From positions 1 through 35,270 of IMG/VR virus record IMGVR_UViG_3300044632_001311: a stretch of 35,270 nt of DNA. One strand, 5' to 3'. The notes under the pieces were generated by a model. It had not been told where the DNA came from. It ran no database searches and was given only the letters and a program-made list of their open reading frames with translations. The DNA is from a virus. Below are positions 2,578-24,412 of the stretch, piece after piece. Within the stretch, counting starts at the first letter, position 1, and each line of letters opens with the position of its first letter. Position numbers and translations under genes: made by a program.

Positions 2578-3582
2578 GTGAAGATACGCGATCTATTACT
2601 GGAATATGACGCCAACAAAATTCGTCAATTGGCGCCGTTGTTGGCCAATAGAACACAAGACGACTCATTACCCAAACTTAAATCAGTTGAACAATTGGCT
2701 GATTATGTGGAAAAACAACTGGGAATAAAGTCAGGTGAATTGGTATTTTGGATCTTGCACAGATATCTCAACAAATCCACACAAGGGCAATATGGCATCA
2801 ACAGGTGGGAAGATATCAGTGCAAGATTGATTCCTGCACTGGACAAATTCACCAAGCTCAAGAACAAGAAAAAATTACCACCTGAACAACGAGATATCAA
2901 CAGATTTAAGTCGTTGGGTCAACTGGAAGACCTCATGGATCAATATCCTGATGAGGAGTTGGCAAGTCAAAAAGAGCAGGCCAGTGCTCAAGAAAAACAA
3001 TATTATGATTCAGGCCAAGCTGAGTTGGTTTACAACGATCCAACAATCAAAGTAGTGGTTCCCAAAACACAAGAGGCCAGTTGTTATTTTGGCACCAACA
3101 CAAGATGGTGTACTGCTGCCAAACAAAACAATATGTTTGGCAGCTACAACAACCAAGGACCTTTGTATATTGTTCTGATCAAACCAGAAAATGCCAGATA
3201 CCAATTTCATTGGGAATCCAATCAATTCATGGATGAAAAAGATCAAGACATCAATCCCAACCAATTGGCTGACAAATATCCTGTTTTGTGGAAAATATTT
3301 CAACCCATTGCGGAAAAAAATAAATCACTGGTATTAAACCAAAATCCCAGTCTAAAAGTTCAATTGGCAGCAGTCAAGCAAGATGGCCAGGCAATCCAAT
3401 TCATCCAAAATCCCAGTGAACAAGTGCAAATGGCAGCAGTCAGTGAATATGGCTGGGCAATTGTATATATCAAAAATCCCAGTGAACAAGTGCAAATGGC
3501 AGCAGTCAAGCAAGATGGCCAGGCAATTGAACATATCAAAAATCCCAGTCCACAAGTGCAAATGGCAGCAAAGGCAAAATGA
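2578..3582 (+). CDS. Repeat protein with WCTAA-type domain and DUF4116-like repeats
   Basis: 334 residues from a GTG at 2578 (TAGGAAAA upstream), giving MKIRDLLLEYDANKI. Residues 1-120 are helical and charged. About 140-240 form a domain with VPKTQEASCYFGTNTRWCTA, a motif I associate with uncharacterised proteins of large myoviruses. From about 256 to the end are 22-residue repeats of the form NPSxxVQxAAVxxxGxAIxxIx, three full and one partial, like DUF4116 repeats. Function unknown; such repeats suggest a binding scaffold. It is one of only two plus-strand genes in the window and faces the topoisomerase gene tail to tail. Confidence 0.75.
   Translation: MKIRDLLLEYDANKIRQLAPLLANRTQDDSLPKLKSVEQLADYVEKQLGIKSGELVFWILHRYLNKSTQGQYGINRWEDISARLIPALDKFTKLKNKKKLPPEQRDINRFKSLGQLEDLMDQYPDEELASQKEQASAQEKQYYDSGQAELVYNDPTIKVVVPKTQEASCYFGTNTRWCTAAKQNNMFGSYNNQGPLYIVLIKPENARYQFHWESNQFMDEKDQDINPNQLADKYPVLWKIFQPIAEKNKSLVLNQNPSLKVQLAAVKQDGQAIQFIQNPSEQVQMAAVSEYGWAIVYIKNPSEQVQMAAVKQDGQAIEHIKNPSPQVQMAAKAK
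3343..3579 (+). repeat. 66-bp tandem coding repeats
   Basis: Units begin at 3343, 3409, 3475 and 3541, each starting AATCCCAGT and 66 bp long (last one partial). Two units are almost identical at DNA level, which suggests recent expansion or gene conversion. Confidence 0.75.
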
Positions 3583-3617: not shown

Positions 3618-5010
3618 ATTTCAAAAGAGCTTGAACTTCCTTTTTGTAGACAGATTTGATTTTTTTAGGATCATTCAAAATGTCTTCCAGGACAACAATT
3701 TGATCACCCAGATCAACAATCTCTTGGTCCACTTTGGCAACACTGTCTTGTGCCCAACGATAGCTGGGAAAGCTCACCAACCGTTCGATCTGGCTGTCAT
3801 CCAACGTGATCTTGGTGCAAATTTTACGCACTTGATCTTCCACACTTGATTTGTTGGGTGCAGTGGGCAGGAATTTGGGCAAGCCTTTGTCCACACATGC
3901 TTTTACAGCGCATGCAAAATTCAACTCCTTGGTGAGATCTGCAATCTGCTTTTGGAATCGTATGGTAAACCAACCCAGTCGCCATTCCACAAAGCTCTTG
4001 ACCAGATCTTGAGCATTCTCATATTGACGGATACTGGTGTTGTTGAAATCCAACACAACAAATCGTTCACTGCTTTTGCTCTTGAGCTTGAGGAAGTTGA
4101 TGGCATCCTGCTCACCCCAGCCATCAATTGTGCCTCTCTTGAATCTGATTTCTATGTTGATTGTTTTTGTGCTTCTGTCAGTGTAGGTGTTGATTAGTCC
4201 GTCATCTTCCATTTGGTTCAATCTGGCCTTGAATCTTTCCAAACTCAAGTCTGGAGGCAGTTCTGTGACTCGCACTGTAGTGACACTTTCCACCACAACT
4301 CGGCCCATGAACTCATAGCTGTTGTCGCCCAGATCCTTGGTTTGTACATTCATGCAATCGTATTTGGGGATTATCTTCTTGATGGGCTTGTTGTCTATGG
4401 CTGCTACTGTGGCCTCAACAATATCCTGCAAGCTGTGTGGCAAAATATCAGTGCTCCAACCCACAGCAATGCCACTGATGCCATTCAGCAACACCAGGGG
4501 AATCAAGGGTAGGAAATTACAGGGTTCATATGTGCTGCCATCATAATTGGGTTTGAGCGGCACAATATCAAGATCAGTGTATAGCAAAGCCTGAGTAGCC
4601 TTGCTCTTTTTCACATAAGTGTAACGAGGAGCGCCCCAACCATCAGGAGATACTCTGGTGCCAAATGCGCCAACACCATCCAGCAAGGGCACATTGTTGA
4701 GATAGGGTGCTGCAAGACGACTGATGGTATCACTGGCGCTGACATCTCCGTGGAGAAAAATTCCCTCCTGTATCGCCGAACCGGCAAGGCTGATAGTTTT
4801 GATTTTTTCACTTTTGTTACGAATCATCCATAACATTTTGCGCTGGCCATCCTTGAGTCCATCACACACACTGGGAATAGCCCTATTTTGTGCGGTGTAG
4901 ATAGCATATTCTTTTGAACTAGTATTGATAAAATCACTACTGGATAATCCAGTTATGTGCATTGTCTCTTGATTTACTTTTTGAGCGTTTTGCACTTGTT
5001 TCCGTGCCAT
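3613..5010 (-). CDS. Type II DNA topoisomerase, medium (GyrA/ParC-like, T4 gp52-type) subunit
   Basis: 465 residues, close to T4 gp52 (about 440). This subunit cuts and rejoins DNA. Visible landmarks: AIPSVCDGLKDGQRKMLW near residue 45 (the classic GyrA-family block), a helix-turn-helix-like DNA-binding stretch with HGD (about 88-110), VGAFGTR, and the active-site tyrosine in GAPRYTYV near residue 128. The C-terminus has the coiled-coil region (IVDLGDQIVVLEDIL) and lacks the long beta-pinwheel of gyrase, as in T4. The start has AAAGGAAA 10 nt upstream. The upstream GIY-YIG gene overlaps it by 37 bp. Together with the split large subunit it forms the phage topoisomerase used in DNA replication. 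Confidence 0.92.
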   Translation of the reverse strand: MARKQVQNAQKVNQETMHITGLSSSDFINTSSKEYAIYTAQNRAIPSVCDGLKDGQRKMLWMIRNKSEKIKTISLAGSAIQEGIFLHGDVSASDTISRLAAPYLNNVPLLDGVGAFGTRVSPDGWGAPRYTYVKKSKATQALLYTDLDIVPLKPNYDGSTYEPCNFLPLIPLVLLNGISGIAVGWSTDILPHSLQDIVEATVAAIDNKPIKKIIPKYDCMNVQTKDLGDNSYEFMGRVVVESVTTVRVTELPPDLSLERFKARLNQMEDDGLINTYTDRSTKTINIEIRFKRGTIDGWGEQDAINFLKLKSKSSERFVVLDFNNTSIRQYENAQDLVKSFVEWRLGWFTIRFQKQIADLTKELNFACAVKACVDKGLPKFLPTAPNKSSVEDQVRKICTKITLDDSQIERLVSFPSYRWAQDSVAKVDQEIVDLGDQIVVLEDILNDPKKIKSVYKKEVQALLKL

Positions 5011-5858
5011 CTGTTATAGTTTCCTTTGTTTGTTTCTATTCCGCAATGAGGACATGATATCCGTGAATTCATAACTTTGGTTCCAGCTGAAGTCCGTTCT
5101 AGTCTTTCTTCTCTAGATAGGGTTTTCCAAGACTCTTCAATTATAGTAGGTCTCCTATGATGATATAGGTCCAATTCAGCTTCTGTAAATTCTTTTTTTG
5201 CATGCCGCTCCCTTAATTTCGCTCTCCCTAGATACCAATTATCAGTTTGCAGCATACGTTGACCAAAAAGTTTGAGAGAAGGAATAAGTTTCACTTGTGC
5301 ATCAGTCAATCCGTTGTTTTTCAATCTTTGTTGAGCTTTTGCTAATGATTGTTTATGAACTTTGGAATCAGGATTGTAATTGATATGTTTAACTAATTGG
5401 TTGAGAACATCTGGATGATTGCAAGGTAATCGTTTGATTGTCCCATCCGGATATCTCCAAATAGAAAATCCTTTTTGATTTGTCGGAGTCTTATGCAACC
5501 CTGCTGCTCGATTCTTATTCCAAGTATCTCTAATTTTCTGTTTGATCTCATCTGTGATAATAATATAATTGCCTTTGTTACCGTTGTAACCTTTGGGATA
5601 TAATGTGTCAAACAGTTCGACATAATATATTTCCATGGCTCGATAATATTCATCAGGCTCATTGCCTTCTTCAATCAACTCAATGATGAAATCATCTCTT
5701 GTTGCCAAGCCATCATCCAGATCCTTTTTGATCCATACCCCGCCTAGCCCAGACATATGTTTTTCAAATCTGTCCATGTGCGTTTGTTCTTCACAAATAC
5801 TGATGCCAATATAACTGCGCATATTTTGGATATTGGTTATTTTGTAAACTTGTTTCAT
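4974..5858 (-). CDS. GIY-YIG homing endonuclease (free-standing)
   Basis: 294 residues from ATG 5858 (MKQVYKITN) behind GGAGGG; upstream in-frame ATGs at 5870-5873 lie in the regulatory stem. The N-terminal nuclease domain shows VYKIT and SYIGIS (the GIY-YIG elements), followed by RFEKHMSG and an EIYYVELF segment with the catalytic-type glutamate. The middle is basic and helical, likely DNA-binding. The C-terminus ends in a zinc finger (CPHCGIETNKGNYNRW, then H and C) common in phage GIY-YIG enzymes. It sits between the two topoisomerase subunit genes and overlaps the downstream one, the normal position of an intergenic homing gene that cuts topoisomerase-region DNA of element-free relatives. 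Confidence 0.88.
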   Translation of the reverse strand: MKQVYKITNIQNMRSYIGISICEEQTHMDRFEKHMSGLGGVWIKKDLDDGLATRDDFIIELIEEGNEPDEYYRAMEIYYVELFDTLYPKGYNGNKGNYIIITDEIKQKIRDTWNKNRAAGLHKTPTNQKGFSIWRYPDGTIKRLPCNHPDVLNQLVKHINYNPDSKVHKQSLAKAQQRLKNNGLTDAQVKLIPSLKLFGQRMLQTDNWYLGRAKLRERHAKKEFTEAELDLYHHRRPTIIEESWKTLSREERLERTSAGTKVMNSRISCPHCGIETNKGNYNRWHGNKCKTLKK

Positions 5859-5867
5859 TGGGCCCTC

Positions 5868-5909
5868 CATCACCGTGTAAGTATATTTATTTATACCTGC
5901 ACGGTGATG
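5868..5909 (-). promoter_or_regulatory. Hairpin with internal late promoter in front of the GIY-YIG gene
   Basis: CATCACCGTG / CACGGTGATG (10 bp) encloses an inner GTATA/TATAC stem. The minus-strand TATAAATA box (5888-5895) lies in the loop and inner stem. The 3' arm abuts the GGAGGG ribosome-binding site. Transcripts arriving from upstream would fold this hairpin; transcripts starting from the internal late promoter would lose the 5' arm. Confidence 0.7.
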
Positions 5910-5919
5910 AACGGTGGAT

Positions 5920-6645
5920 TTATATGCTCATCCATTCCTTTCTCGCGTCAGCTCTGGTTTTGTTGAAAAGTAGATCCAGTGTGTCACTGAGTTTACCGTC
6001 ATCCAAGAGTGGAATCAACCTGGGACTTACCAGACTGTTTTTCCAGTCAATTTCTTCCAGACTGGCCAGTCCTTTGGCTCTGGTAGGTTTGGGACAGCCA
6101 TGCCAATCCTCGCCCTTGTAGTTTTGCCAATCATCGCTATACCAATAGTGACGATGTTTTTTCTTGTCTTCCTGGATGATAAATGGTGTGCTGAACACAA
6201 GGAAAAAGGGTGGTTGCTGAGGATCAAACAGGTCAGGCCAATACAGGTAAAAGAAGTTGGTGAGCAGGGCCATGATGTTGGCACCATCAGTATCAGCGTC
6301 ACAAGTGATCCACACTTGTCCATAACGTAAACTGGTTCGGTCTACTTTTTGGCCCATGATCAGTCCAATGGAGCTCATGATATCCTGACAGATCTGATTG
6401 TCCAACACAGTTTTGTTGGTTTCTCCACGAACATTGAGGATCTTACCACGCAAGGGCAAACCTCCATGAATTTCTGGATCTCTCACAGCACTGGCCATGC
6501 TGATGGCGCTGTTGTGCACAAGTAAACCGTTACCCAACACAAAAGTTTCATCATCCATGACCTGGATGTCATAGGCATTAAAATTATCCGTAGGAGATAT
6601 TTCTGTGATGTCTTCCATGAGGAAGAGAGATTGATTGATATCCAT
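5920..6645 (-). CDS. C-terminal split-intein half fused to the C-terminal part of topoisomerase large subunit
   Basis: 241 residues. Residues 1-45 are an intein C-terminal half: YDIQVMDDETFVLGNGLLVHN shortened here to its key parts, block F (YDIQVMDDETFV) and block G (GLLVHN with the terminal Asn). Residue 46 is Ser, the +1 nucleophile. Residues 46-241 continue the TOPRIM region of the GyrB/gp39-type subunit: SAISMASAVRDP, LRGKILNV, then the metal-binding DADTDGANI near residue 128. Protein trans-splicing with the product at 8007-9815 would rebuild LTEGD-SA and yield a topoisomerase subunit of about 626 residues, close to the combined size of T4 gp39 and gp60. The gene starts 1 bp after the endonuclease stop (AGGA upstream), so translation is probably coupled. 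Confidence 0.9.
   Translation of the reverse strand: MDINQSLFLMEDITEISPTDNFNAYDIQVMDDETFVLGNGLLVHNSAISMASAVRDPEIHGGLPLRGKILNVRGETNKTVLDNQICQDIMSSIGLIMGQKVDRTSLRYGQVWITCDADTDGANIMALLTNFFYLYWPDLFDPQQPPFFLVFSTPFIIQEDKKKHRHYWYSDDWQNYKGEDWHGCPKPTRAKGLASLEEIDWKNSLVSPRLIPLLDDGKLSDTLDLLFNKTRADARKEWMSI
6511..6645 (-). mobile_element. C-terminal split intein half (45 residues)
   Basis: Blocks F and G ending in LLVHN followed by +1 Ser. The 45-residue length is slightly above the 35-40 usual for natural split C-inteins. The penultimate His and terminal Asn needed for cleavage are present. Confidence 0.9.
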
Positions 6646-6646
6646 G

Positions 6647-7954
6647 TTAAATTCCTAAGATTTGGTTTAGTTGTTGTTGATAACTATGAGGATATATAAT
6701 TATACTTGAAAATGTTTGTTCTTTAAATCTCATGTGGTTCGCATAATCAAGATTACCCATATTGCCTGCAATTTCTATATATAAATTTGGTTTGATCAAA
6801 TATAGATCATAAAATAAGGTAGTGTTGGGATATTTTTGGTTGATTTTGAAATCTTGATTCTCATGTAGCCCTTTTGTGAGAAGATAATCATACACCAAAA
6901 TTTCTAGTCTGCTTTTTAGTATAGTCCCACAATTACTGTAGCTATAGTAGCTATACTTGTTTTTGAAAATTTCCCTTTGATGGGTTTTGTAGGCAGGTAA
7001 TTTGGATCTCACCAACCAATCTATCTGTTGCGATGAGATTGAATAAAATTCTTTAGCCACGTTATACCAGGAATAATACTTGCATTCATTATCAATATTG
7101 AATGTGTTATAAACATGCAACGGATTTTTCTCCGCCAGTGAGGCTACACGGCCTATGAAACTATCAAAAGTATCTTCACTTGCACCCTGATCGGTTTTAA
7201 AAGTGATCCACTTTTCCAAATATTGTTGTGTCCCTTGTATTTTGCCATATTTGCGGAGATAAGTGGGTAAATCATGTGTGATAGACATTTTCCATAAGTT
7301 ATAGAGAGACTTGCCTTCCTCTTCTCCATGTTTATCTATTAATCTGTCAAGTGTCATAGATTTTAATTTTTGTACTTCTTTCCATAAACCAACCCCCTGA
7401 GTTCCATGTTTTGTAACATATCCTTCTAGACTTCTACTATAATTGGCTTTGGAGATCCAAGAATCTCTATCTTTGCCAGTGGATTCCCACCATTCCTTGG
7501 ATCTACTTTGAGATTTTTTATGAGATTCACTGTTGGTATGATTACAAGGATAAAAAGGAGTTTTATTCCTACTATGAAGATGTTCATGAGCTTTTTGGGG
7601 ATCCATACCATATGCTTTTTCTATAAATTCAATACTGTTTTTATTAAGTGTCTTACTGGCGCACGTATTTTTTGCAAAACATAAAAATTGAGCTTTGAAT
7701 CTCCTTTTGACTGATATAGGGTGTATTTCTCTGTTATGAACCTCATGCTCTATGTATTGAATATCATGATTATGATCATTACACCATGCACATCTTAGTT
7801 GATAATGAGAGATATTCCATTGCTTAAGGTATTCAAAGATAGAGATTTTGTTGCGAGTTAATGCACCTCGCAGCCTTCGTATGCGTTCCACAGGATCATC
7901 ATTACAGGTGAAAGATATTTTAAATTTAGGACATATAAAAGTTTTTTTGGTCAC
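6647..7954 (-). CDS. Vsr-like (EDxHD/PD-(D/E)XK-type) homing endonuclease between split intein halves
   Basis: 435 residues from GTG 7954 (AGGAGAAC just upstream). A longer frame to 8041 would run through the regulatory hairpin and overlap the preceding gene, so I reject it. The N-terminus has zinc-binding-like Cys/His pairs (CAWCNDHNHD). The middle carries three modules of the form KxGxxxGxxLW (KHGTQGVGLW, KHGEEEGKSLY, KYGKIQGTQQY), seen in DNA-binding parts of phage endonucleases. The C-terminal 100 residues look like a Vsr-type nuclease: SRLE, then FYDLYL and IEIAG, giving the E...D...E-x-A pattern. It occupies the exact gap between the two halves of a split intein, the 'fractured gene' arrangement reported for such endonucleases in environmental phage sequences. 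Confidence 0.82.
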   Translation of the reverse strand: MTKKTFICPKFKISFTCNDDPVERIRRLRGALTRNKISIFEYLKQWNISHYQLRCAWCNDHNHDIQYIEHEVHNREIHPISVKRRFKAQFLCFAKNTCASKTLNKNSIEFIEKAYGMDPQKAHEHLHSRNKTPFYPCNHTNSESHKKSQSRSKEWWESTGKDRDSWISKANYSRSLEGYVTKHGTQGVGLWKEVQKLKSMTLDRLIDKHGEEEGKSLYNLWKMSITHDLPTYLRKYGKIQGTQQYLEKWITFKTDQGASEDTFDSFIGRVASLAEKNPLHVYNTFNIDNECKYYSWYNVAKEFYSISSQQIDWLVRSKLPAYKTHQREIFKNKYSYYSYSNCGTILKSRLEILVYDYLLTKGLHENQDFKINQKYPNTTLFYDLYLIKPNLYIEIAGNMGNLDYANHMRFKEQTFSSIIIYPHSYQQQLNQILGI

Positions 7955-7957
7955 GAT

Positions 7958-8001
7958 GTTCTCCTTCTGTGACTTGTATTTATGGGTCACAGAAGGAGAA
8001 C
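7958..8001 (-). promoter_or_regulatory. RBS-hiding hairpin with late-promoter-like loop
   Basis: A perfect 16-bp stem (GTTCTCCTTCTGTGAC / GTCACAGAAGGAGAAC) has a 12-nt loop. The 3' arm in the minus-strand RNA contains AGAAGGAGAAC, the ribosome-binding site of the endonuclease starting at 7954. The loop carries CATAAATA (7977-7984), one base from the T4 late consensus. It begins 5 bp after the stop of the N-terminal topoisomerase fragment. Confidence 0.75.
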
Positions 8002-8006
8002 GCTGT

Positions 8007-9815
8007 TTAGATATTGGCAGCCAATAATAAATGGTTTTCAAGGTCCAAGCAGTTAGCTTTGACTTTGATTATGGATGCGGTTGTTATATCAAAAACTTGA
8101 AATAGATGGTCTGGAGAAGTGATAATTGAACTCTTGATGTGGTCATTACCATAAGTCACACACAAACTGAATTGTGCATGATTAAATTGATCAATATCGT
8201 AGATCTCCAAAAATTGGCAGCCCAAATCTAGAGTTGTTTTGAACATACGGTGTTGATTGAGATCCAGGTCCTCTGCCTTCAATAGCTCCACTTGAGATGT
8301 TGTTTTGTTGAATACTGGTATTTTATGGTTCCTACTAACTGTAATATGATTTCCAGATGCAGTTTTGATAATCATACCATCAATTATTTTGGCAGATTTG
8401 TTACAAATAGGTTTGAAGTTACCCTTATGAGTTAGAACTAGATCACCCACCTTTGTTTCTTTGATTGGTTTGTGAACAAGAACACCGTAATCTAAAACCA
8501 CTACATGTGTATCTTCATGAATACAATCACCTTCTGTGAGCATGAGAATACACTTGGTTCTGTCTTTGCCAGTGGCATCCATGAGCTTGGGCACTTTGTT
8601 GCGCAAAACTTTGCGTGCTAGTTTGTTGGTTTCTGCATCATCTTTTTTCTGTGTGCGTGCTGCACATCTAGCATAGATTTGTTCAATCCATGACTTGTGA
8701 TCACGAATGATTCTCTTGTAGAGCTTCTCATCATCCAAGGCAGTCTTAACATGAGTCTCAACTTCCTCGTTGATCAGCCTGGTTTTGCTCTGACTGTCAA
8801 AATTGGGAGCGTGCATGGTGGTGCTGTTGTACACCAGTATGCCTTCGCTGATGTCACTTCTGTTGGGGGAGAGTCCACGACGCTTGCTTTCACGTTCCAG
8901 TGCCTTGAGTAGACTGCTGAAGAATACTCGCTTGAATACATCAATGTGATTGCCACCATTGAATGCTGGGATGTCATTCACAGTGCTGTGAACATATTCG
9001 CCTTCTGATGCAAATTGGGGAACCAAATAAAATGTGCTGAGGAACTTGTCAACGTCAACTGCCACTTTCACATAATCCAGAGAGTCAAAAAAGGTTTTGT
9101 CCAAAGTGGCTTTGACCGATATTTTCTCGTCGTTGAAGTAAAACTTCACCTCTGGATGGTTGGCAGCAATTTCTGTAATTCTACTACGCACAAATTCCAT
9201 AGGGAGGATTCTGTGCTTGAACACTTCTTTGCTGGGCACAAACTCAATGAGTGTGCCAGTTTTGTCTCCAGACACTTTTGTGATCTTGGCCTTGTTTACT
9301 TGGAGCTCAGGCAATACAGCAGTGGGTTCCTCAAAGTGCTGTTGGAATTTTTCACCATTGCGCCAAACAGTCACACTGGCCCGTTCACTTGTATGCACAG
9401 TTGCACTGGCACCGATGCCATTTGTGCCTCTCACCACTTCACGTTCATCAAAATTTCTACCCGCCCGGGGACTGATCAAAACCATGGTGGCCTTGTGCAT
9501 TTTCTCCCCTTCATCCCAGTCTGTTGGGATGCCTCTGCCATTGTCTCTCACTGAGAACGTCATGGTTTCAGGATCATATGTGATGTCAATCCTGTTGCCA
9601 TGGCCATGGCCCAACAGTTCATCCAAACTATTGTCCAGTATTTCTCTAAATGCTGTGTAGATTGCTGGTACCCAAGTGGTTTCTTGAGCCACCAATTTCT
9701 CACCGTTCCAGTTCACCACTGTTTGAGTGTGTGGACTGCGACTGCCCAGATACATTTCTGTCCTGAGCCTAATATGTTGACTGTCTGTTAATTTTTTGAT
9801 TGTATCTTTTGCCAT
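8007..9815 (-). CDS. Topoisomerase large subunit N-terminal part (GyrB/gp39-like) fused to N-terminal split-intein half
   Basis: 602 residues. Residues 1-430 are the ATPase and first TOPRIM part of a type II topoisomerase: EILDNSLDEL (Mg/ATP-binding Glu and Asn), VRDNGRGIP, VRGTNGIGASA, a QSKTRL block near residue 350, and LTEGD at 426-430, the TOPRIM glutamate motif. Here the host protein is interrupted: residue 431 is Cys1 of an intein. The 172-residue intein half has block A (CIHEDTHVVV) and block B (TASGNHITVSRNH), and then an apparent second block-B-like copy before the stop. The rest of the subunit is encoded at 5920-6645. The junction falls inside EGD|SA, an essential site, so unspliced product should be inactive. 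Confidence 0.92.
   Translation of the reverse strand: MAKDTIKKLTDSQHIRLRTEMYLGSRSPHTQTVVNWNGEKLVAQETTWVPAIYTAFREILDNSLDELLGHGHGNRIDITYDPETMTFSVRDNGRGIPTDWDEGEKMHKATMVLISPRAGRNFDEREVVRGTNGIGASATVHTSERASVTVWRNGEKFQQHFEEPTAVLPELQVNKAKITKVSGDKTGTLIEFVPSKEVFKHRILPMEFVRSRITEIAANHPEVKFYFNDEKISVKATLDKTFFDSLDYVKVAVDVDKFLSTFYLVPQFASEGEYVHSTVNDIPAFNGGNHIDVFKRVFFSSLLKALERESKRRGLSPNRSDISEGILVYNSTTMHAPNFDSQSKTRLINEEVETHVKTALDDEKLYKRIIRDHKSWIEQIYARCAARTQKKDDAETNKLARKVLRNKVPKLMDATGKDRTKCILMLTEGDCIHEDTHVVVLDYGVLVHKPIKETKVGDLVLTHKGNFKPICNKSAKIIDGMIIKTASGNHITVSRNHKIPVFNKTTSQVELLKAEDLDLNQHRMFKTTLDLGCQFLEIYDIDQFNHAQFSLCVTYGNDHIKSSIITSPDHLFQVFDITTASIIKVKANCLDLENHLLLAANI
8010..8525 (-). mobile_element. N-terminal split intein half (172 residues)
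   Basis: Begins at Cys (TGT 8523-8525) directly after LTEGD and runs to the stop at 8007. Block B histidine is in TVSRNH. It is longer than typical natural split N-inteins (around 100 residues), apparently because the block-B region is duplicated. Its partner is encoded at 6511-6645. Confidence 0.88.
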
Positions 9816-9930: not shown

Positions 9931-10644
9931 TTAGTCACGATCTCCTAGGAGATTGAGCAAAAACTGAAAGATGTTGATGAAGTTGAGATACAAGCTGAAA
10001 GCACCATACAATGCACTTTTTTCTGGGCTGTCAAATCCCAAAACTTCACCATAGTTGAGGTAATCATTCTTGAGATTTTGCACGTCATATGCTGTGAGTC
10101 CTGTGAAGATCAACACACCCAACACGCTCACCACAAACATCACCAAACTGCTGCCCAGGAAAATGTTCACCAACATGGCAATCATAATACCCACCATGCC
10201 CATGAACAAAAAATTGCCCATTTTGGTGAGATCCGTGCTGGTGGTATAGCCCCACAAGCTGGCAGCAGCAAAAGTTGCAGCACTGATAAAGAACACAGTG
10301 GCAATGCTCTGGGTGGTGAACACCACAAACAGGGTGCTCAAGCTCATGCCCATGGCCACTGCAAATGCCCAAAACAACGCATGCACAGTAGAGTAACTGA
10401 ATTTGTGCAAGCCATAACTGATCACAAATACAAAAGGCAGGGGCAACAGTGCAAACACAATGGCCAGCACGCCCTTGAGGGCCACTCCCAAAATTGCGGC
10501 TGTGATCATGGCTGTGACACCACTGACCACAAGGGCTGTTGACATTTTGTTGTACACACTGCGCATGTAGTCTCGCAACCCTGTGTGAATATCTCCATGT
10601 GAGTGTGTCACACTCACATGGTCGCTAATTTGATCATCCATCAT
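9931..10644 (-). CDS. Bax inhibitor-1 (BI-1/YccA/YbhL) family membrane protein
   Basis: 237 residues with a short hydrophilic N-terminus and seven hydrophobic helices from about residue 38 to the end. Family hallmarks are visible: a VFFISAATFAAASLWGYTT block, a DLTKMGNFLFMG block, NIFLGSS, and the GLTAYDVQNLK motif holding one of the paired acidic residues of the BI-1 fold. The C-terminus has ALYGAFSLYLNFINIFQ, also typical. BI-1 proteins are membrane proteins linked to calcium leak and, for YccA, to inhibition of FtsH. In a phage it could protect phage membrane proteins from host FtsH or affect lysis timing; both are inference. The gene has its own promoter and terminator. Confidence 0.92.
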   Translation of the reverse strand: MMDDQISDHVSVTHSHGDIHTGLRDYMRSVYNKMSTALVVSGVTAMITAAILGVALKGVLAIVFALLPLPFVFVISYGLHKFSYSTVHALFWAFAVAMGMSLSTLFVVFTTQSIATVFFISAATFAAASLWGYTTSTDLTKMGNFLFMGMVGIMIAMLVNIFLGSSLVMFVVSVLGVLIFTGLTAYDVQNLKNDYLNYGEVLGFDSPEKSALYGAFSLYLNFINIFQFLLNLLGDRD

Positions 10645-10739: not shown

Positions 10740-10830
10740 TATAAATAAGAATGGTAATCAGGGTGTTGGAACCACCCTGAAACCCAGCTTGGAGATCCTG
10801 GGCTGTCCCAACACTTATTTATCTTGGAGA
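10740..10830 (+). promoter_or_regulatory. Late promoter within a long-range leader stem of the plus-strand endonuclease
   Basis: TATAAATA at 10740-10747 matches the T4 late consensus. ATAAATAA (10741-10748) pairs with TTATTTAT (10815-10822), and GTGTTGG (10763-10769) with CCAACAC (10808-10814); an inner CCCAG/CTGGG hairpin lies at 10783-10802. The 3' arm ends 3 nt before the GGAG ribosome-binding site (10826-10829). A transcript starting at this promoter would lose the 5' arm. Confidence 0.55.
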
Positions 10831-10835
10831 CTATA

Positions 10836-12014
10836 ATGTCATCTAATAACAATTATCTCGTAGATTATCACGGATTTGTATATCTCTGGAGAGATCATAT
10901 CCATAAGAAATATTACCTTGGAAGTCATTTGGGGTCTAAACATGATCATTATATTGGATCCAACACCTGGTTAAAAACCGCTTATCAAAAGAGACCACAT
11001 ACTTTCACTCGCCGTATAATTCAATGGTTACTGTTCCAAAATGAAACACAGGAAATTGCCCTATCACGTCTTCACAAATTAGAGCAACAATGGTTGGATA
11101 TGATTGACGATAATGAATTGTCAATTAGTAAAAATGTTCTAGCAGGCACAAATAGATATTACAATATGAAGAAAACTGCGGCCGGTGAAAGTCATAAAGG
11201 GCATAAAAAGAATAGGACCAAACCTGCGTGGAATATAGGTATATCTTCTGAAATGTTAAAATTGAGGAAAGAGGGATATTTTTGTTTGTTGTCAGATAAA
11301 CCTAAAGCTGCAAAAAACCGAATAAAACATAGTTCTATTCTGGTCCCCAGACCACGAAGAGTTAAGCGACCACCATCAATATGTCCTGTATGTGATAAAC
11401 AATTTCTTGGTAACATTGGTCAAAAGACCTGTAGCAGATCTTGTTCAGGTAAAAGATTATGGCAAGAAGGGAAAATATCACCACAATGGGGTACGGGAAA
11501 AGCTTGGAATAAGGGGTTACCAAATCCTTTGGCAGCAGCAAATGGAATAAAAGGTGCCCAAAAATTACGAGAGAAAATCAAAGGCCGTAAATTGATCAAA
11601 TTAGCGGACGGGAAAAAACACTGGGTATATCCTGGAGATGAAAATTATCCATTAGTAGATAGTAACATCAAAAAGAAGGAATCAGCAAAAATACCTAACA
11701 AAGTTAGCCTAGATGACCTTCCTCTTACACCATCTCCATTACAGAAAGGTTCACCAGAATGGAAAGAACTCTTCAGACAGAAGGTTATGCAAAATGCTAA
11801 AAGAGGACTTGAGCACTCATCAGCCTGGTTATGGGTTTTGAAAAATCCTGTTGGGAAGATAATTGAGGTAATAGGATTAGCTGACTTTTGCAGAGAAAAT
11901 AATTTATCTATGACGGCTCTTCAATACAACTATAATGCGCTAAATTCTGGCCCTATTAGCCGAGGTAAATCAAAGGGTTGGCAAGTAGTAGATAAGAGGA
12001 AAGGCAACATATAG
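10836..12014 (+). CDS. GIY-YIG-like homing endonuclease
   Basis: 392 residues from ATG 10836 (GGAG 6 nt upstream; an in-frame TTG at 10824 overlaps that site and is rejected). The N-terminus reads GFVYLWRDHIHKKYYLGSH, a divergent GIY-YIG motif (VYL...YYLGS) seen in phage endonucleases. Residues about 185-205 form a zinc finger (CPVCDKQFLGNIGQKTCSRS, then C). The C-terminus (ADFCRENNLSMTALQYNYNA) resembles the DNA-binding tail of this enzyme class. It is one of only two plus-strand genes, sits against the tmRNA gene, and its stop codon lies inside the shared terminator. Probably an intergenic homing gene. Confidence 0.8.
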   Translation: MSSNNNYLVDYHGFVYLWRDHIHKKYYLGSHLGSKHDHYIGSNTWLKTAYQKRPHTFTRRIIQWLLFQNETQEIALSRLHKLEQQWLDMIDDNELSISKNVLAGTNRYYNMKKTAAGESHKGHKKNRTKPAWNIGISSEMLKLRKEGYFCLLSDKPKAAKNRIKHSSILVPRPRRVKRPPSICPVCDKQFLGNIGQKTCSRSCSGKRLWQEGKISPQWGTGKAWNKGLPNPLAAANGIKGAQKLREKIKGRKLIKLADGKKHWVYPGDENYPLVDSNIKKKESAKIPNKVSLDDLPLTPSPLQKGSPEWKELFRQKVMQNAKRGLEHSSAWLWVLKNPVGKIIEVIGLADFCRENNLSMTALQYNYNALNSGPISRGKSKGWQVVDKRKGNI

Positions 12015-12022
12015 TTGCCTTT
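12000..12022. terminator. Bidirectional terminator shared by endonuclease and tmRNA
   Basis: AAAGGCAAC / GTTGCCTTT with a 5-nt loop. On the minus strand, T-rich TCCTCTT follows. It ends the rightward endonuclease gene (stop TAG 12012-12014) and the leftward tmRNA. Confidence 0.7.
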
Positions 12023-12024
12023 CC

Positions 12025-12237
12025 CTATCCGTTATGTTACCACGTGGATAAAGCGTTGCGAACTAGCTGTTTAGGCAGCTAACGCGAGATTGCCGTTATC
12101 GTTGGCCTTTCTCAATTTGCACTAATTTGCAGTCGTAGCTTACTGGTGCCTAGATACTACTTTCACCTCCGGTCGAAACCCTTTCACCCCCATAAATGGT
12201 GGAGGTGGCGGTAATTGAAACCGCGTCCCAAGTGGCT
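12025..12237 (-). ncRNA. ssrA: Circularly permuted two-piece tmRNA
   Basis: tmRNA rescues stalled ribosomes with SmpB and adds a degradation tag. Minus-strand order: acceptor piece with T arm GCGGT-TTCAATT-ACCGC (12208-12224), acceptor strand CACCTCC (12201-12207), A, CCA (12197-12199); a 5-nt spacer TTTAT; then the tmRNA 5' end GGGGGTG (12185-12191), which pairs with CACCTCC over 7 bp; GGGTTTCGACCGG follows, the conserved D-like region. The tag frame GCC...TAA (12071-12106) encodes ANDNGNLALAA. The 3' CCA therefore precedes the 5' end, the permuted layout of alphaproteobacteria. A possible P2 helix pairs CACGTGGT near 12042 with GCCACTTG near 12232. The outer ends are approximate. The 5-nt intervening segment is strikingly short. 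Confidence 0.9.
12071..12106 (-). other. tmRNA proteolysis-tag reading frame
   Basis: Eleven codons and TAA: ANDNGNLALAA. The hydrophobic ALAA end is the usual signal for ClpXP and related proteases; the ANDN start is common in alphaproteobacterial tags. With the alanine charged on tmRNA the full tag would be AANDNGNLALAA. Confidence 0.88.
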
Positions 12238-12243
12238 ATTATA
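12238..12243 (-). promoter_or_regulatory. Extended -10 promoter for tmRNA
   Basis: TGCTATAAT on the minus strand is a perfect -10 hexamer with an extended TG. The -35 region is weak (CTGATC). It lies 20 bp after the stop of the neighbouring GIY-YIG gene, and transcription would start near 12231. If so, part of the proposed P2 strand would be missing, so an upstream start or processing is also possible. Confidence 0.65.
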
Positions 12244-12262
12244 GCACCCTATAACTATCAGA

Positions 12263-13042
12263 TCAGCACGTCTTCTGACAGTATTTCATCCTTCTTCCTT
12301 TATACCATCCTTCAGGGATAATGTCAAGTTTATCAATATATTTATTTTGTTCTATTACTGGATTATAGATCCACATTTTTCCATTGCCAGTATCAGATTG
12401 CTTTTTTAAAAGTTCTTTGTATTCTGTTACAGATAGGTATCCTTCAGGGATATTAGATGGAGTAACCATTATTCTCTTTGATTTATCATCAGGAGAGTCT
12501 AGGCAAATACACCATATTTTACCATAATTGGGATTACCTTTTCCTGTATGCAGAGCTGATAATTTTGCTGCTTGTGAAGCCTGGCCTATCAAGAAATAAT
12601 CTGGATTTTCTTTTCTCAATTGCTGCAACTTTTTGTTGCCGAGCAAGGATGCTTCCTTGGCTGTAACTGAATTCCATGGTGTGCATTTTTTCAATAGATT
12701 TTTGATGGCAATCTTTCCAGCTTTACTTGCTCGTAGTCTATGAGCTTCATCACCATTATTGATATGGCTGAATCCTCCATCACCTTCTTCTATCTTCAAA
12801 TTCGCCCATTCCTGACTATCCACAATATTCCATAACTGTGAATTATATATACCTTGTTGACGTATATAACTTGCATCAAGTGATTCACACAAGATTTCTG
12901 TAGATATATCTATTCCATGTTTTTTAAGGTGGTTCCGCCATCTAATGCCAGATCCCACATATTTGTAAGGATCCTGTTTTGTAGTTCCAAGATATTTCAG
13001 ACCTGTTTTGTTATGAGTTTTGACGTAGAGATAAATAGGCAT
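12263..13042 (-). CDS. GIY-YIG homing endonuclease
   Basis: 259 residues. The N-terminus shows IYLYVKTHNKTGLKYLGTT (the GIY-YIG pair in the YLYV...KYLG form), then YKYVGSGIRWRNHLKKHG, typical of phage and bacterial GIY-YIG proteins. EEGDGGFSH and repeated SxAGKxA-like segments follow; the C-terminal part (WIYNPVIEQNKYI) is basic and probably binds DNA. A GGAGG site precedes the start by 11 nt, and a TATAAATA box lies 62 bp upstream. The gene is directly upstream of the tmRNA, which it may have travelled with. Confidence 0.82.
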   Translation of the reverse strand: MPIYLYVKTHNKTGLKYLGTTKQDPYKYVGSGIRWRNHLKKHGIDISTEILCESLDASYIRQQGIYNSQLWNIVDSQEWANLKIEEGDGGFSHINNGDEAHRLRASKAGKIAIKNLLKKCTPWNSVTAKEASLLGNKKLQQLRKENPDYFLIGQASQAAKLSALHTGKGNPNYGKIWCICLDSPDDKSKRIMVTPSNIPEGYLSVTEYKELLKKQSDTGNGKMWIYNPVIEQNKYIDKLDIIPEGWYKGRRMKYCQKTC

Positions 13043-16399: not shown

Positions 16400-16814
16400 C
16401 TCTGGATAGATGACTAGACCAGATCTCTTGTCGGGTATAATCAGGTATTTGATTTTTCAAGATGGCAAACATGTTTATGGGACGATTATCATCAAAAGGA
16501 GTAATATCAATCAATTTACCATTTCTTGTCCTGACAACACTGTGTAATATAGCCCCCATGTTGTGAGTATCACAACACTCTAATAGATAGTATCCCAAAA
16601 CTCGTTCCCCTCCATACCAGGATGTGTAATTCAATGTATTGTTGTGACAGTCCCAATATCTACAGTGTGGTTTGGGAAAAACTGGCACAGCACCCACCCA
16701 GGAACATCCCAAAGCCCTACAAAAATCAATCAGGGAATGATCAAGATTGGGAATTATCAAGTCTTTTGAATGATTCAATTTTCCATCCTTTTGCAGGACC
16801 ACTTCTGGGTTCAT
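16371..16814 (-). CDS. Hypothetical protein, Trp/His-rich
   Basis: 147 residues if started at ATG 16814. That start overlaps the GIY-YIG gene by 74 bp and lacks a good ribosome-binding site, so the original start may have been changed when the endonuclease arrived. The core has CRALGCSWVGAVPVFPKPHC and DCHNNTLNYTSWYGGERVLGYYLLEC, with several His, Cys and Trp residues, reminiscent of uncharacterised phage proteins. The C-terminus includes a GKLIDITPFDDNR segment. No function can be assigned. Confidence 0.6.
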   Translation of the reverse strand: MNPEVVLQKDGKLNHSKDLIIPNLDHSLIDFCRALGCSWVGAVPVFPKPHCRYWDCHNNTLNYTSWYGGERVLGYYLLECCDTHNMGAILHSVVRTRNGKLIDITPFDDNRPINMFAILKNQIPDYTRQEIWSSHLSRDDHNHNLQT

Positions 16815-17496
16815 AATTATCTTTTGAATAGATCATCTTGTGGATAGTTGAGGCTGGAAGGCCGAGTGATTCACAAAGTTTATCAATATTGCCTATAGTA
16901 GTATATTCTTGACCATCTGGGCTTGTTAATTTCCAAACGAAACTCTTTTTGTGGGTTTCGCCAACGTATTTCTTGTTGGCTTCTCCTATCTTTTGTCTCC
17001 GAGATTCTGGACAGGGACCATATTTCCTACCAGTTCCCTTTTCACCAATCAGCTTTTTAGTAGCTTCAGAATGCTGTTTGGGACCATAGCCTCCCCTTTC
17101 ACGTTGCAATCTGGCTCGTTTTTCCTTTTGTTCTTTAGCTCTCTCTACGCCATAAATCTCTTCATAAGTTTTGCCCTTGTGATTGGGTGGACGCGAGTCA
17201 GTACATATGTTGGTTAATATTCCACCAGGATCATAACCTTTCCTTCCATAGTGTTTGATATACAAGGATTCAATGTCATATGCCAATGATTCATCTTCAA
17301 TATTCTCCACCAAATATATGATACCTGGCTCCAGACCCTCACTGCGAATTGCGTTAATTTTATTCTCCTTATGGATATTCCTTACTCCAGACATGTTATA
17401 CAAGTGGGTTTGGGCCCTTGTTCCATTACCTTTTCCGATATAAAATGGTTGAGTATTCCTTGGATCTATAAGAGCATATACGTAATAAGTTATCAT
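16741..17496 (-). CDS. GIY-YIG homing endonuclease next to nrdB
   Basis: 251 residues from ATG 17496 (MITYYVYALID). GIY-YIG signature: YYVYALIDPRNTQPFYIGKG at residues 4-23, with RAQTHLYN and a catalytic-type Glu in YDIESLYIKHYG. After a basic linker with NUMOD3-like HSEATKKLIGEK and PESRRQKIGEANKKY segments, the C-terminus (TSPDGQEYTTIGNIDKLCES, LGLPASTIHKMI, GWKIESF) matches the helix-turn-helix tail typical of these enzymes. It lies between nrdB and a hypothetical gene whose 5' end it overlaps. Its ribosome-binding site and AUG are buried in a 16-bp hairpin. Confidence 0.9.
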   Translation of the reverse strand: MITYYVYALIDPRNTQPFYIGKGNGTRAQTHLYNMSGVRNIHKENKINAIRSEGLEPGIIYLVENIEDESLAYDIESLYIKHYGRKGYDPGGILTNICTDSRPPNHKGKTYEEIYGVERAKEQKEKRARLQRERGGYGPKQHSEATKKLIGEKGTGRKYGPCPESRRQKIGEANKKYVGETHKKSFVWKLTSPDGQEYTTIGNIDKLCESLGLPASTIHKMIYSKDNYEPRSGPAKGWKIESFKRLDNSQS

Positions 17497-17534
17497 TTGA
17501 GCCTCTTGCATAAATATGTGCAAGAGGCTCAAAT
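17495..17534 (-). promoter_or_regulatory. RBS- and start-codon-hiding hairpin of the nrdB-linked endonuclease
   Basis: Perfect 16-bp inverted repeat (ATTTGAGCCTCTTGCA / TGCAAGAGGCTCAAAT) with an 8-nt loop, 13 bp after the nrdB stop. The 3' arm contains AAGAGG and the first two bases of the AUG at 17496. No late promoter is read in the loop on the minus strand. Confidence 0.75.
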
Positions 17535-18751: not shown

Positions 18752-21508
18752 TCATATAGTGCAGCTATCACATGACTCTGCGTCTTGTGCTGCTGCGTCA
18801 GCAGTGTCTTGTGCGATTAGTTTATCCGCATCCACTTCTCCTTGCAAATCGTTTGAGTTGAAATAGTAGAGAGTTTTTATACCCCACTTGTAGGCCAACA
18901 GCATGTGGCGCAGCATTTCGCTCATGGGCAATTGATGATCGGGATAAAAGTCTGGATTGTAGCTGGTGTTGGCACTTATGGTTTGATCCATCCACCGTTG
19001 TATTACAGCCACTATCTTGAGATAACCTTCTGGGCTCTTTTGATCCCACAACAGCTCATAACGGTTCTTGAGGCGACGATATTCTGGCACCACCTGTTTC
19101 ATCACACCATCCTTGCTTTGTTTGATTGAAATCAAGCTGCGTGGTGGTTCAATGCCGTTGGTGCTGTTGCTGATCAAGCTGCTGGCCTCACTGGGCATGC
19201 AAGCCAACAGTGTTGTGTTGCGAATTCCGTGAATTTTCAAATCTGCTCTCAGCTTGTCCCAGGGCAGTCTCTCCTGGTAGCCCACCAGCTCATCTGTGTC
19301 AGTCTTGCGTGTGTCAATGGGCACAATGCCCAGGCTGTACTTGCTTTCTGCACTGCCTGTGGGAGCACCCTTTTCCATGGCCAAGTCTACACTGGCACGG
19401 ATCATGTAATAACTCCAGGCTTCAGCATACTCGTCCAGGGTAGCCAGGGCGCTGTCGTCACTGTAGCGGAAGCCCATTTTGGCTATCCAGTACGCCAAAT
19501 TAACTATTCCCACCCCCAGTGGGCGAAATTTTTCTGTGTGTGCGCGGGCAGCCTGCAGGGGGTAATCTTGATAATCCAACAGTGCATCCAATGCTCGCAC
19601 AGCCAACTTGCAGGGTTTTTCAAAGTCTTTGGGTTCGCGGATCTTGCCCCAGTTGATGGCTGCCAGGGTGCACAATGCCACTGCTGGATTGGGGTCATCA
19701 ATGCTTTGTAGGGGCAAGGTGGGCAGAGTTATCTCTGCACAGTTGTGAACAACTATATTGTTAGCCACAAATGCAGAAGTTTCAGGTACAGTTATGTCAT
19801 ACACATCTGTGGGCTCTACTTGAATTTTACGGAGTTTGATCATAGTGATCTGCCTTGTGTAATCAGTACATAACACGTCAGTTTCTGTCAAATCTTTGGC
19901 CATCACCCATCCTCTGTTCTGCGTCCAGATTTGATGATCAGGTGTGCAGCGTATTAAGTTGCCCTTCTCATCCTCAATTTCCATCAGCTCTGTTACTGTA
20001 GCTGTTTTGGCAGCAGCACTCACGTTTTCCCAAACAAATTCACCTGTTTCGGTATTGTAGCTTCTCACTTTGACGCCGTTCATACCACCATAAATCCATG
20101 CCTCAACAAAGCTGCTGAGACTCATAGCCTCTTCCTTGTCATCACTGCGCAATAGCTTGAGTTGAGTATCTCCAGTAAGGCACAAATTGGATTGTCTAAT
20201 GGGGGCTAGATGTTCAATATATGAGCCATGGGTATTGCAGTGATCCACATTCATGAGATAAATGCGACCAGTATTTTTTCTTTCATTCATAAATGTGGTA
20301 AAGAGATCTGTGGACTTGATTGTTTTTTTGCGGATATGGGGATCACGTTCATACTTCTCATAAAGCTCTCTAAACTTGTTTTGATCCTCAAAAAAAGCGT
20401 CATACAACCCTGGCACATCACTGGGAGAGAAGAGAGTTAGATTGGCGCCACTCAACAATCTTTCATAAGCCAGCTTGTTGAATTGCACACCATAATCCAT
20501 GTGGCGTGCACGATTGTCTTCTGTTCCCTTGTTGTTCTTGAGTACCACCAGATCTTCAAACTGCATGTGCCAGAAGGGGAAATAGCATGTGGCTGCGCCG
20601 CCACGTACACCACCTTGATTGCAGCTTTTGACACTAGCCTGGAACAGTTTGGTAAATGGCACCACGCCAGTGTGATAGGCATCACCTCCACGGATGGCAC
20701 TGTTGATTGCCCTGATGCGGCCTATGTTGAGGCCAATGCCAGCCTTGCGACTGACATACCGCACCACAGCATGACTTACAGCACTGATGCTGTCCAAGCT
20801 GTCATCACTTTCAATCAGCACACATGAGCTGAACTGTTTTTGTGGTGTTCTCACACCAGCCATAATGGGCGTGGGCAGGCTGATGTCATGAGTGCTGATG
20901 GCATCATAAAATTCTTTGACCCACTTGAGGCGTGTTTGTGTGGGATATGAATTGAACAACGTGGCTGAGATCAGCATGAGCGACATCTGCGGAGTTTCAA
21001 ACAGCTGACCGGTGACTCGGTTCTTGACCAGATACTTGCCTCTCCACTGTTCCATGGCAGCAAATGTGAGATCCATGTCACGATCATGATCCATGTAGGT
21101 GTCCAATATGGCAAATTCTTCAGGTGTATACCAAACCAGCAGTTCCTTAGTGTAAAATCCCACATCAACCACCTTACGCACGTGGTCCAAGAGAGTGGGT
21201 ATGATAAAATCACCATAGGCTTCTTTGCGGATGTGGTGGTTTACCAATCTGGCAGCTACATATTGATAGTTGGGCGACTCTAAACTGATCAAATCAGCCG
21301 CGGCCTTGATCAAGGTCTCCTGAATATCCACTGTTTGGATACCATTGTAAAATTGCAGCTGAGTTCGGATTTCCACTTCACTGGCACTTACACCACTCAG
21401 GCCCTCGGTGGCCCACATAACCTGTCTATGAATTTTGTCGATATCGAGTGGTTCTTTTTCGCCATTTCTTTTCTCTACAAAGATTGGCTCACCAGATCTA
21501 GCAGTCAT
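18752..21508 (-). CDS. nrdA: Ribonucleotide reductase class Ia, alpha subunit, with mini-intein
   Basis: 918 residues from ATG 21508 (AAGGA 7-8 nt upstream; the GTG at 21514 is too close to that site). Without the 147-residue intein the protein is about 771 residues, close to E. coli NrdA. An N-terminal ATP-cone region (VEKRNGEKEPLDIDKIHRQV) is followed by the catalytic barrel: FSSCVLIESDDS (first redox Cys), SNL|CAEI (active-site Asn, thiyl Cys and Glu, with the intein between L and C), TLYYFNS (radical-transfer tyrosines) and the C-terminal CDSC redox pair. The intein must be removed for the catalytic Cys to take its place. NrdA reduces ribonucleotides for phage DNA synthesis with NrdB and glutaredoxin. 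Confidence 0.95.
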   Translation of the reverse strand: MTARSGEPIFVEKRNGEKEPLDIDKIHRQVMWATEGLSGVSASEVEIRTQLQFYNGIQTVDIQETLIKAAADLISLESPNYQYVAARLVNHHIRKEAYGDFIIPTLLDHVRKVVDVGFYTKELLVWYTPEEFAILDTYMDHDRDMDLTFAAMEQWRGKYLVKNRVTGQLFETPQMSLMLISATLFNSYPTQTRLKWVKEFYDAISTHDISLPTPIMAGVRTPQKQFSSCVLIESDDSLDSISAVSHAVVRYVSRKAGIGLNIGRIRAINSAIRGGDAYHTGVVPFTKLFQASVKSCNQGGVRGGAATCYFPFWHMQFEDLVVLKNNKGTEDNRARHMDYGVQFNKLAYERLLSGANLTLFSPSDVPGLYDAFFEDQNKFRELYEKYERDPHIRKKTIKSTDLFTTFMNERKNTGRIYLMNVDHCNTHGSYIEHLAPIRQSNLCLTGDTQLKLLRSDDKEEAMSLSSFVEAWIYGGMNGVKVRSYNTETGEFVWENVSAAAKTATVTELMEIEDEKGNLIRCTPDHQIWTQNRGWVMAKDLTETDVLCTDYTRQITMIKLRKIQVEPTDVYDITVPETSAFVANNIVVHNCAEITLPTLPLQSIDDPNPAVALCTLAAINWGKIREPKDFEKPCKLAVRALDALLDYQDYPLQAARAHTEKFRPLGVGIVNLAYWIAKMGFRYSDDSALATLDEYAEAWSYYMIRASVDLAMEKGAPTGSAESKYSLGIVPIDTRKTDTDELVGYQERLPWDKLRADLKIHGIRNTTLLACMPSEASSLISNSTNGIEPPRSLISIKQSKDGVMKQVVPEYRRLKNRYELLWDQKSPEGYLKIVAVIQRWMDQTISANTSYNPDFYPDHQLPMSEMLRHMLLAYKWGIKTLYYFNSNDLQGEVDADKLIAQDTADAAAQDAESCDSCTI
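19742..20182 (-). mobile_element. Mini-intein in NrdA (147 residues)
   Basis: Begins CLTGDTQLKLL (Cys1, block A), has block B in NLIRCTPDHQIW, block F in VYDITVPETSAFVANN and block G in IVVHN, then +1 Cys, which is also the catalytic thiyl Cys of the reductase. There is no endonuclease domain. It is inserted directly before the active-site Cys, a highly conserved position. Confidence 0.93.
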
Positions 21509-21626
21509 CAGCACGTCCTTTTTCTTGCGTTGGTTTCATCGTATGTTCAGTAATGAGTTTACTGTGGGTGAAGGTATTTAAAAACAGATCAGCCCGATTA
21601 GTTACAAAGATTACCAATTATTTTGG

Positions 21627-23743: not shown

Positions 23744-24412
23744 TCATGAGTAATATTTTTCTAATCGTAGGACCCAATCTTCCAAATTTTTGGTATAGTC
23801 ATCAACATTCCACACAAATTCCTGATATTCAAGGTCTCTGCTGCACATGAACACCACCAATTTTTTGATATCAGTACCAAATGTATAATTATGTGATTCT
23901 GCATAAGCCGTCAATTGCAATCGGTAATCATCCACTCGCTCAAGAGTTTTGGGCCTAATGGTGGTTTTGAAGTCCATGATAGCTGGTTCACCTTTGTGGA
24001 CACCAACTAAATCAGTTGTGCCAGCCCAGAGTGTGTCGTACACAAGTGGAACTTCAATACCCCACACCTCATCCAAATTGCATAGGCCATGCTCTATGAT
24101 TTTGTCAGCCATGTTGCGAGCCATCACTCTGCCCAGATTGTTGCCGCCAGGTCTCTCCATGCCTTTGATGTGATTTTCCAGGTGCGTGTGCATGGTGGTG
24201 CCCAGACTGGTGCTGTCTTTGGTGATTTGATCTGCTGCTGCATCACCTATTCTCTTGCGCCAGGCCAACAGATGTTTCATGTCCTTGGTTTTGCTCAGGA
24301 TTGTGGTGACGCTGGGGAGTTTTGATCCGTCAGGTGTGACATATTTTCTGCCAGTGCTTTCTTCCACACGTTGAACTTGAGTGTAATCAAATTTATCCAA
24401 ACATAATTTCAT
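23744..24412 (-). CDS. PD-(D/E)XK family exonuclease (RecB-like)
   Basis: 222 residues. LPSVTTILSKT (residues 33-43), SLGTTMHTHLENHI (conserved His), the core GTTDLVGVHKGEPAIMDFKT with the catalytic D...D-x-K residues, and LQLTAYAES (motif with Gln and Tyr) are the signature of the phage and Cas4/RecB-like exonuclease group. Likely role: processing DNA ends in phage recombination or replication. The gene ends well and sits 9 bp downstream of purK in the same direction. Confidence 0.85.
   Translation of the reverse strand: MKLCLDKFDYTQVQRVEESTGRKYVTPDGSKLPSVTTILSKTKDMKHLLAWRKRIGDAAADQITKDSTSLGTTMHTHLENHIKGMERPGGNNLGRVMARNMADKIIEHGLCNLDEVWGIEVPLVYDTLWAGTTDLVGVHKGEPAIMDFKTTIRPKTLERVDDYRLQLTAYAESHNYTFGTDIKKLVVFMCSRDLEYQEFVWNVDDYTKNLEDWVLRLEKYYS

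Follow-up and report, generated by a model that had tools for sequence, protein, structure and literature searches.

The stretch of DNA analyzed here (the window, a virus contig of 35,270 bases from IMG/VR) carries on its minus strand a circularly permuted tmRNA gene, in which the acceptor end lies upstream of the 5′ end: the encoded CCA is followed by TTTAT and then by GGGGGTG. The covariance model for permuted tmRNA (RF04321, tmRNA_permuted) matched the gene at full length, with model positions 1–213 all covered, and scored 110.3 bits (E = 6.8e-21; cut-off 47 bits), far above chance. ARAGORN independently reported a permuted tmRNA* on the same strand with the tag ANDNGNLALAA, a proteolysis-type ending followed directly by a stop, and the alpha-specific model (alpha_tmRNA, RF01849) gave a weak match of 62 bits. 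These results bear out the first-pass annotation, made from the sequence alone, which had proposed a phage-encoded permuted tmRNA and a covariance-model scan as its check; the letters it had read for the CCA, the 5-nt spacer, the 5′ acceptor strand and the tag are exact on direct reading of the minus strand. The interval it had assigned, 12025–12243, holds most of the gene and cuts off part of P2, the acceptor-side strand of which runs to approximately 12249. The elements of the gene are listed in Table 1.

Table 1. Elements of the permuted tmRNA gene and its downstream repeat, in window coordinates.
Feature	Coordinates	Strand	Basis
Permuted tmRNA core: acceptor piece, spacer, coding piece to tag stop	12071..12259	-	RF04321 (match 12259-12071), ARAGORN
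Acceptor piece: P2 5′ strand, T-arm, 3′ acceptor strand, A73, CCA	12197..12259	-	Direct reading, RF04321, comparison
P2, acceptor-side strand	12228..12249	-	Duplex energy, swap test
T-arm within acceptor piece	12224-12208	-	
3′ acceptor strand CACCTCC	12207-12201	-	
Encoded CCA	12199-12197	-	Direct reading
Intervening spacer TTTAT, 5 nt	12192..12196	-	Direct reading and pattern extraction
5′ acceptor strand GGGGGTG (G1–G7) with G3.U70; G1 at 12191	12185..12191	-	Reading, RF04321, comparison
P2, coding-side strand	12152..12172	-	Pairing in relatives and swap test
Pseudoknot PK1 (CAGT/ACTG and GC[T]AC/GTGC)	12119..12145	-	Pairing in window, L309 and Phosso; arms hand-chosen
Tag frame ANDNGNLALAA and stop	12071..12106	-	ARAGORN, translation
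11-bp inverted repeat beyond coding piece, GGAAAGGCAAC-TATAT-GTTGCCTTTCC; likely terminator	11998..12024	-	Direct reading

The helices of the gene were compared with those of two other phage tmRNAs, from the contig L309 and the Sinorhizobium jumbo phage Phosso. The acceptor stem forms seven of seven pairs and the T-arm five of five in all three, with G3.U70 kept throughout; P2 pairs in each, as do both 4-bp stems of PK1, which includes a bulged U. Every one of these helices contains columns in which both sides have changed. As the helix arms in this three-phage comparison were picked by hand, a P2 swap test free of hand choice was added. The acceptor-side and coding-side regions of the window form a P2 duplex of −20.7 kcal/mol, and when foreign regions were paired with the window's partner, this value was reached by no acceptor region and by eight coding regions, of 229 tried in each case; over 230 genes, the mean was −15.4 for own partners and −12.2 for swapped ones. 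With P2 paired and PK1 present, the outcome that the first-pass annotation had named as fatal to its proposal, a gene with no complete P2 or pseudoknot, was not what we found, although the outer part of the P2 helix in RF04321 is unmatched in the window. When P2 was swapped among four phages, the duplex version did not favor L309's own pair, and the cofold version was uninformative because self-folding dominates. Folded by itself as a single strand, the precursor gives weak support (z = −1.78), and because CACCTCC can pair instead with GGAGGTG of the coding piece, the modeled probability of the acceptor stem falls to 0.44. Beyond the coding piece, the inverted repeat in Table 1 is likely a terminator shared with the convergent ORF; L309 has a hairpin of different sequence at the matching place. 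The repeat was absent from the output of a simple terminator scan, and promoter and terminator scans of the window gave results near chance.

The surrounding genes are those of a phage. The window encodes a T4-superfamily (phage-type) topoisomerase II, NrdA and NrdB (PHROG matches) and virion structural proteins, the matches of the last being less specific than those of the first three. The description "T4-like" probably holds in the broad sense of the superfamily; the best matches of the topoisomerase II are to jumbo phages of alphaproteobacteria, Phosso (55%) and the Agrobacterium phage Atu_ph07 (53%), and because of this proximity an alphaproteobacterial host is likely. Five other IMG/VR contigs belong to the same species (approximately 99.8% identity or more), and the tmRNA region is identical in all of them. 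DNA-level searches of annotated phages gave no match, whether the query was the tmRNA or 25 kb of the window, and a search with the amidoligase and its two-sequence profile matched only the same species and L309. Adjoining the tmRNA is a gene for a Bax inhibitor-1-like membrane protein (9931–10644, minus strand; Pfam Bax1-I, E = 1.3e-49) that is kept in L309 and in another contig, L440. Four ORFs resemble homing endonucleases of the GIY-YIG/NUMOD type (12263–13042, 4974–5873 and 16741–17532 on the minus strand; 10824–12014 on the plus strand), and two of these flank the tmRNA directly; the ORF at 12263–13042 has a sub-threshold NUMOD3 match and also matches a GIY-YIG Seg-like gene.

The position of the gene is shared with L309 and L440. 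L309, whose shared proteins are 52–88% identical to those of the window, carries its permuted tmRNA at the corresponding place, between a tape-measure-like ORF and the Bax1-I-like ORF, with a 76-nt spacer that has complementary ends and the tag ANDNVALAVAA. In L440 this interval likewise holds a permuted tmRNA, whose spacer is the 3-nt TAT, beside an ORF that is 48% identical to its counterpart; the locus is thus kept in both relatives although the neighboring proteins differ by approximately 40–50%. Neither of the endonuclease-like ORFs that flank the window tmRNA is found beside the gene in L309 or L440, and the placement of the tmRNA is therefore independent of them. Phosso carries a permuted tmRNA at PV764938.1 349596–350198 (minus strand; L312), with a 410-nt spacer, the tag ANDNVSTKVALAA and a score of 113 bits with RF04321; it lies at another genome position and is unannotated in the record. 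No tmRNA reached threshold in Atu_ph07, which agrees with a published listing of a single tmRNA for the Sinorhizobium jumbo phage AP-J-162 and of none for Atu_ph07 (PMC11242549). An origin from a named host could not be assigned by nearest neighbor, as the identities all fall between 0.55 and 0.61 and single out no host.

The prevalence of such genes was assessed with a search pattern comprising CTCCACCA, a spacer and GGGG..G.AA..G..TCGAC, which itself fixes the bases of G3.U70. This pattern is strict and passes over divergent genes and those with longer spacers, so that each count is a minimum and the fraction given below refers to matched genes only. Permuted tmRNAs with spacers of 0–30 nt were found in at least 119 viral contigs (at least 88 with 0–9 nt), and those with 31–61 nt in at least 120. 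Spacers of 0–9 nt occur in at least 115 bacterial genome stretches, mostly alphaproteobacterial by title; among the bacterial matches listed, TTTAT itself recurs in several, and in some the spacer is only 2 nt. An even sample of 385 genomes of alphaproteobacteria (the class of Devosia) gave 82 matches with 0–30 nt and 95 with 31–61 nt, so that the spacer is 9 nt or shorter in 17 of the 177 matched genes and exactly 5 nt in four. Cultured bacteria with short spacers include Devosia pacifica (4 nt) and Acidocella aromatica (5 nt). A phage specificity of the short spacer is ruled out by these bacterial genomes, and the spacer is not, as first supposed, far shorter than those of cellular permuted genes; a 2009 account does give 75–125 bp for the spacer (PMC2704228), a figure that persists in the literature, is contradicted by broad sampling and is corrected here. 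Nor is a permuted tmRNA rare or unusual in a phage, as the first-pass annotation had it: the viral counts speak against this, as does a study of phage Melnitz, which has a two-piece tmRNA, in which 53 of 133 unique phage tmRNA structures were two-piece, 50 of the 53 coming from marine or aquatic samples (PMC9004378). The window holds an intact gene and a sound further example of a known phenomenon, two-piece tmRNAs and short spacers being common in phages and bacteria alike.

The closest known system is the permuted two-piece tmRNA of alphaproteobacteria (RF04321/RF01849; PMC11915505), with which the window gene shares gene order, tRNA-like domain, G3.U70, encoded CCA, P2, PK1 and an ANDN-type tag, as well as a short spacer, 2–9 nt being found among the cellular genes too. 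It differs from these in being phage-borne, in its identity of approximately 56–58% to the nearest cellular genes sampled and in its score of 62 bits with the alpha-specific model. Marine T4-like phages, Melnitz and Mosig among them (PMC9004378), likewise carry tmRNAs of the alphaproteobacterial permuted type within the T4 superfamily; the window represents another phage group and, in contrast to them, has no glutamine riboswitch match at Rfam cut-offs. The Sinorhizobium jumbo phages (AP-J-162, PMC11242549; Phosso, PV764938) are related by their topoisomerase II, and the Phosso gene is also permuted and of alpha type, although its spacer length, genome position and lack of annotation set it apart. 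Circularly permuted tRNA genes provide a further parallel: their spacer also lies in the acceptor loop and can be as short as 1 nt, as in T. pendens, where the removal of so short a segment was raised as an open question (PMC3978253). In contrast to tmRNA halves, which stay separate, the tRNA halves are re-ligated.

Taken together, these features are very probably explained by an intact alphaproteobacterial-type permuted tmRNA, carried by a jumbo-phage-like virus of the T4 superfamily and working by ordinary trans-translation. By analogy with the known system, a single transcript would run from acceptor piece through spacer to coding piece. The models and the comparison support a fold in which the spacer would close the acceptor stem as a loop. 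In known two-piece tmRNAs, the transcript is cleaved by tRNA-processing enzymes into two base-paired pieces (PMC11915505), with RNase P and tRNase Z named as the probable enzymes (PMC3985003); here, a nuclease, most likely host RNase P, would cut before G1, and the few bases past CCA would be trimmed, leaving two pieces that the acceptor stem and P2 would keep together. With a spacer of 5 nt, one cut before G1 would make both ends and leave five bases past CCA for exonucleases. Host AlaRS would then charge the molecule through G3.U70, host SmpB would bind it, and ribosomes stalled on broken mRNA would be rescued, their products tagged with ANDNGNLALAA for host proteases. A phage SmpB, which the first-pass annotation had suggested seeking, was not found with PF01668 in Phosso, Atu_ph07 or six partial viral records, nor in the 35,270 bases of the window, which is part of an incomplete phage genome; dependence on host SmpB is therefore an assumption, and ordinary trans-translation using the host protein is the likely role. 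The uses proposed in the first-pass annotation, that the phage may keep ribosomes free late in infection or tag its own truncated proteins, are plausible. The spacer is a fast-changing segment found in many lengths, 5 nt being one of them, and whatever mechanism serves short-spacer genes in cells would suffice here.

The shortness of the spacer invites the opposite idea, that it is never excised and that the one-piece RNA, lacking a free CCA end, serves as an uncharged decoy, blocking or titrating trans-translation in the host. ACCA and TTTAT would make up an acceptor loop of only 9 nt, and the way in which loops so short are cut is unproved. Yet a decoy needs neither an encoded CCA nor G3.U70 nor an intact tag frame, all of which are kept in L309 and Phosso; spacers of 2–5 nt occur in the permuted tmRNA genes of many bacteria, and the relatives with the gene at the same locus have spacers as different as 3 nt (L440) and 76 nt (L309). 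We consider the decoy improbable. To much the same degree we doubt that the gene is a decaying passenger, a host tmRNA acquired once or moved by the neighboring homing-endonuclease-like genes and functionless in the phage. The presence of such ORFs on both sides and the lack of a tmRNA in Atu_ph07 would suit this origin, but the locus is kept in L309 and L440, both of which lack the two ORFs that flank the window gene, and changes on both sides of paired positions are expected under selection.

Misplacement of host DNA in a viral contig probably does occur in the viral collection: one match in the viral collection, L156 (IMGVR_UViG_2830687482_000006, 75,082 bases), shares its spacer context with the Thermosynechococcus contig L203 and, having the same size and tmRNA motif, may itself be host DNA. 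For the window, we give this explanation practically no weight. Its tmRNA has phage genes around it (topoisomerase II, NrdA/NrdB and virion genes), is shared by six contigs of a single species and keeps its gene neighborhood in two further phage contigs; host contamination is ruled out by gene content and synteny.

The intact tmRNA described here adds a further phage group with a two-piece tmRNA. In this group the gene stays at a constant position while the spacer measures 3, 5 or 76 nt, which makes it a natural experiment in how the pieces are separated. How a spacer of 2–5 nt is removed is a question common to cells and phages, and short-spacer genes in cultured bacteria make it testable without the phage. 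One lead comes from the bases just before G1. Among genes with spacers of 9 nt or shorter, UAY stands there in 36 of 46 unique viral cases and in 49 of 99 unique cellular ones, compared with 20 of 71 and 14 of 56, respectively, for spacers of 10–30 nt; AY is more general than UAY, and its bias is strong. The bias possibly marks a processing signal, a lead drawn from counts that ignore relatedness. A more specific proposal, which we put forward tentatively and think rather unlikely to be correct, is that short-spacer permuted tmRNAs of phages and cells follow a one-cut route distinct from the excision by which long spacers are removed: cleavage at UAY|G1 within an acceptor loop of 6–13 nt would make both ends, and exonucleases would trim the few bases beyond CCA.

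Several other features of the window were observed. The large subunit of topoisomerase II is split (5920–9815, minus strand) into pieces at 8007–9815 and 5920–6645 that are separated by a 464-aa ORF (6647–8041); the sequences at the broken ends, CIHEDTHVVV... and ...FVLGNGLLVHNS, resemble the N-terminal and the C-terminal portion of an intein, and the arrangement has the look of a split intein accompanied by a free-standing endonuclease gene. The L309 subunit is without this interruption. NrdA (18752–21514, minus strand) contains an insertion at approximately residues 450–590 (CLTGDTQ...VVHNC), with phage NrdA homologues matching on both sides, which looks like a small intein. Direct repeats of approximately 66 bp lie at 3339–3570 and were seen as self-overlapping matches against contig L186. 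Finally, a PD-(D/E)XK-like nuclease gene approximately 30% identical to window 23744–24412 is found no more than a few kb from the permuted tmRNA in the majority of the marine viral contigs fetched (among L002–L190); in the window, the corresponding gene is 11.5 kb from the tmRNA.
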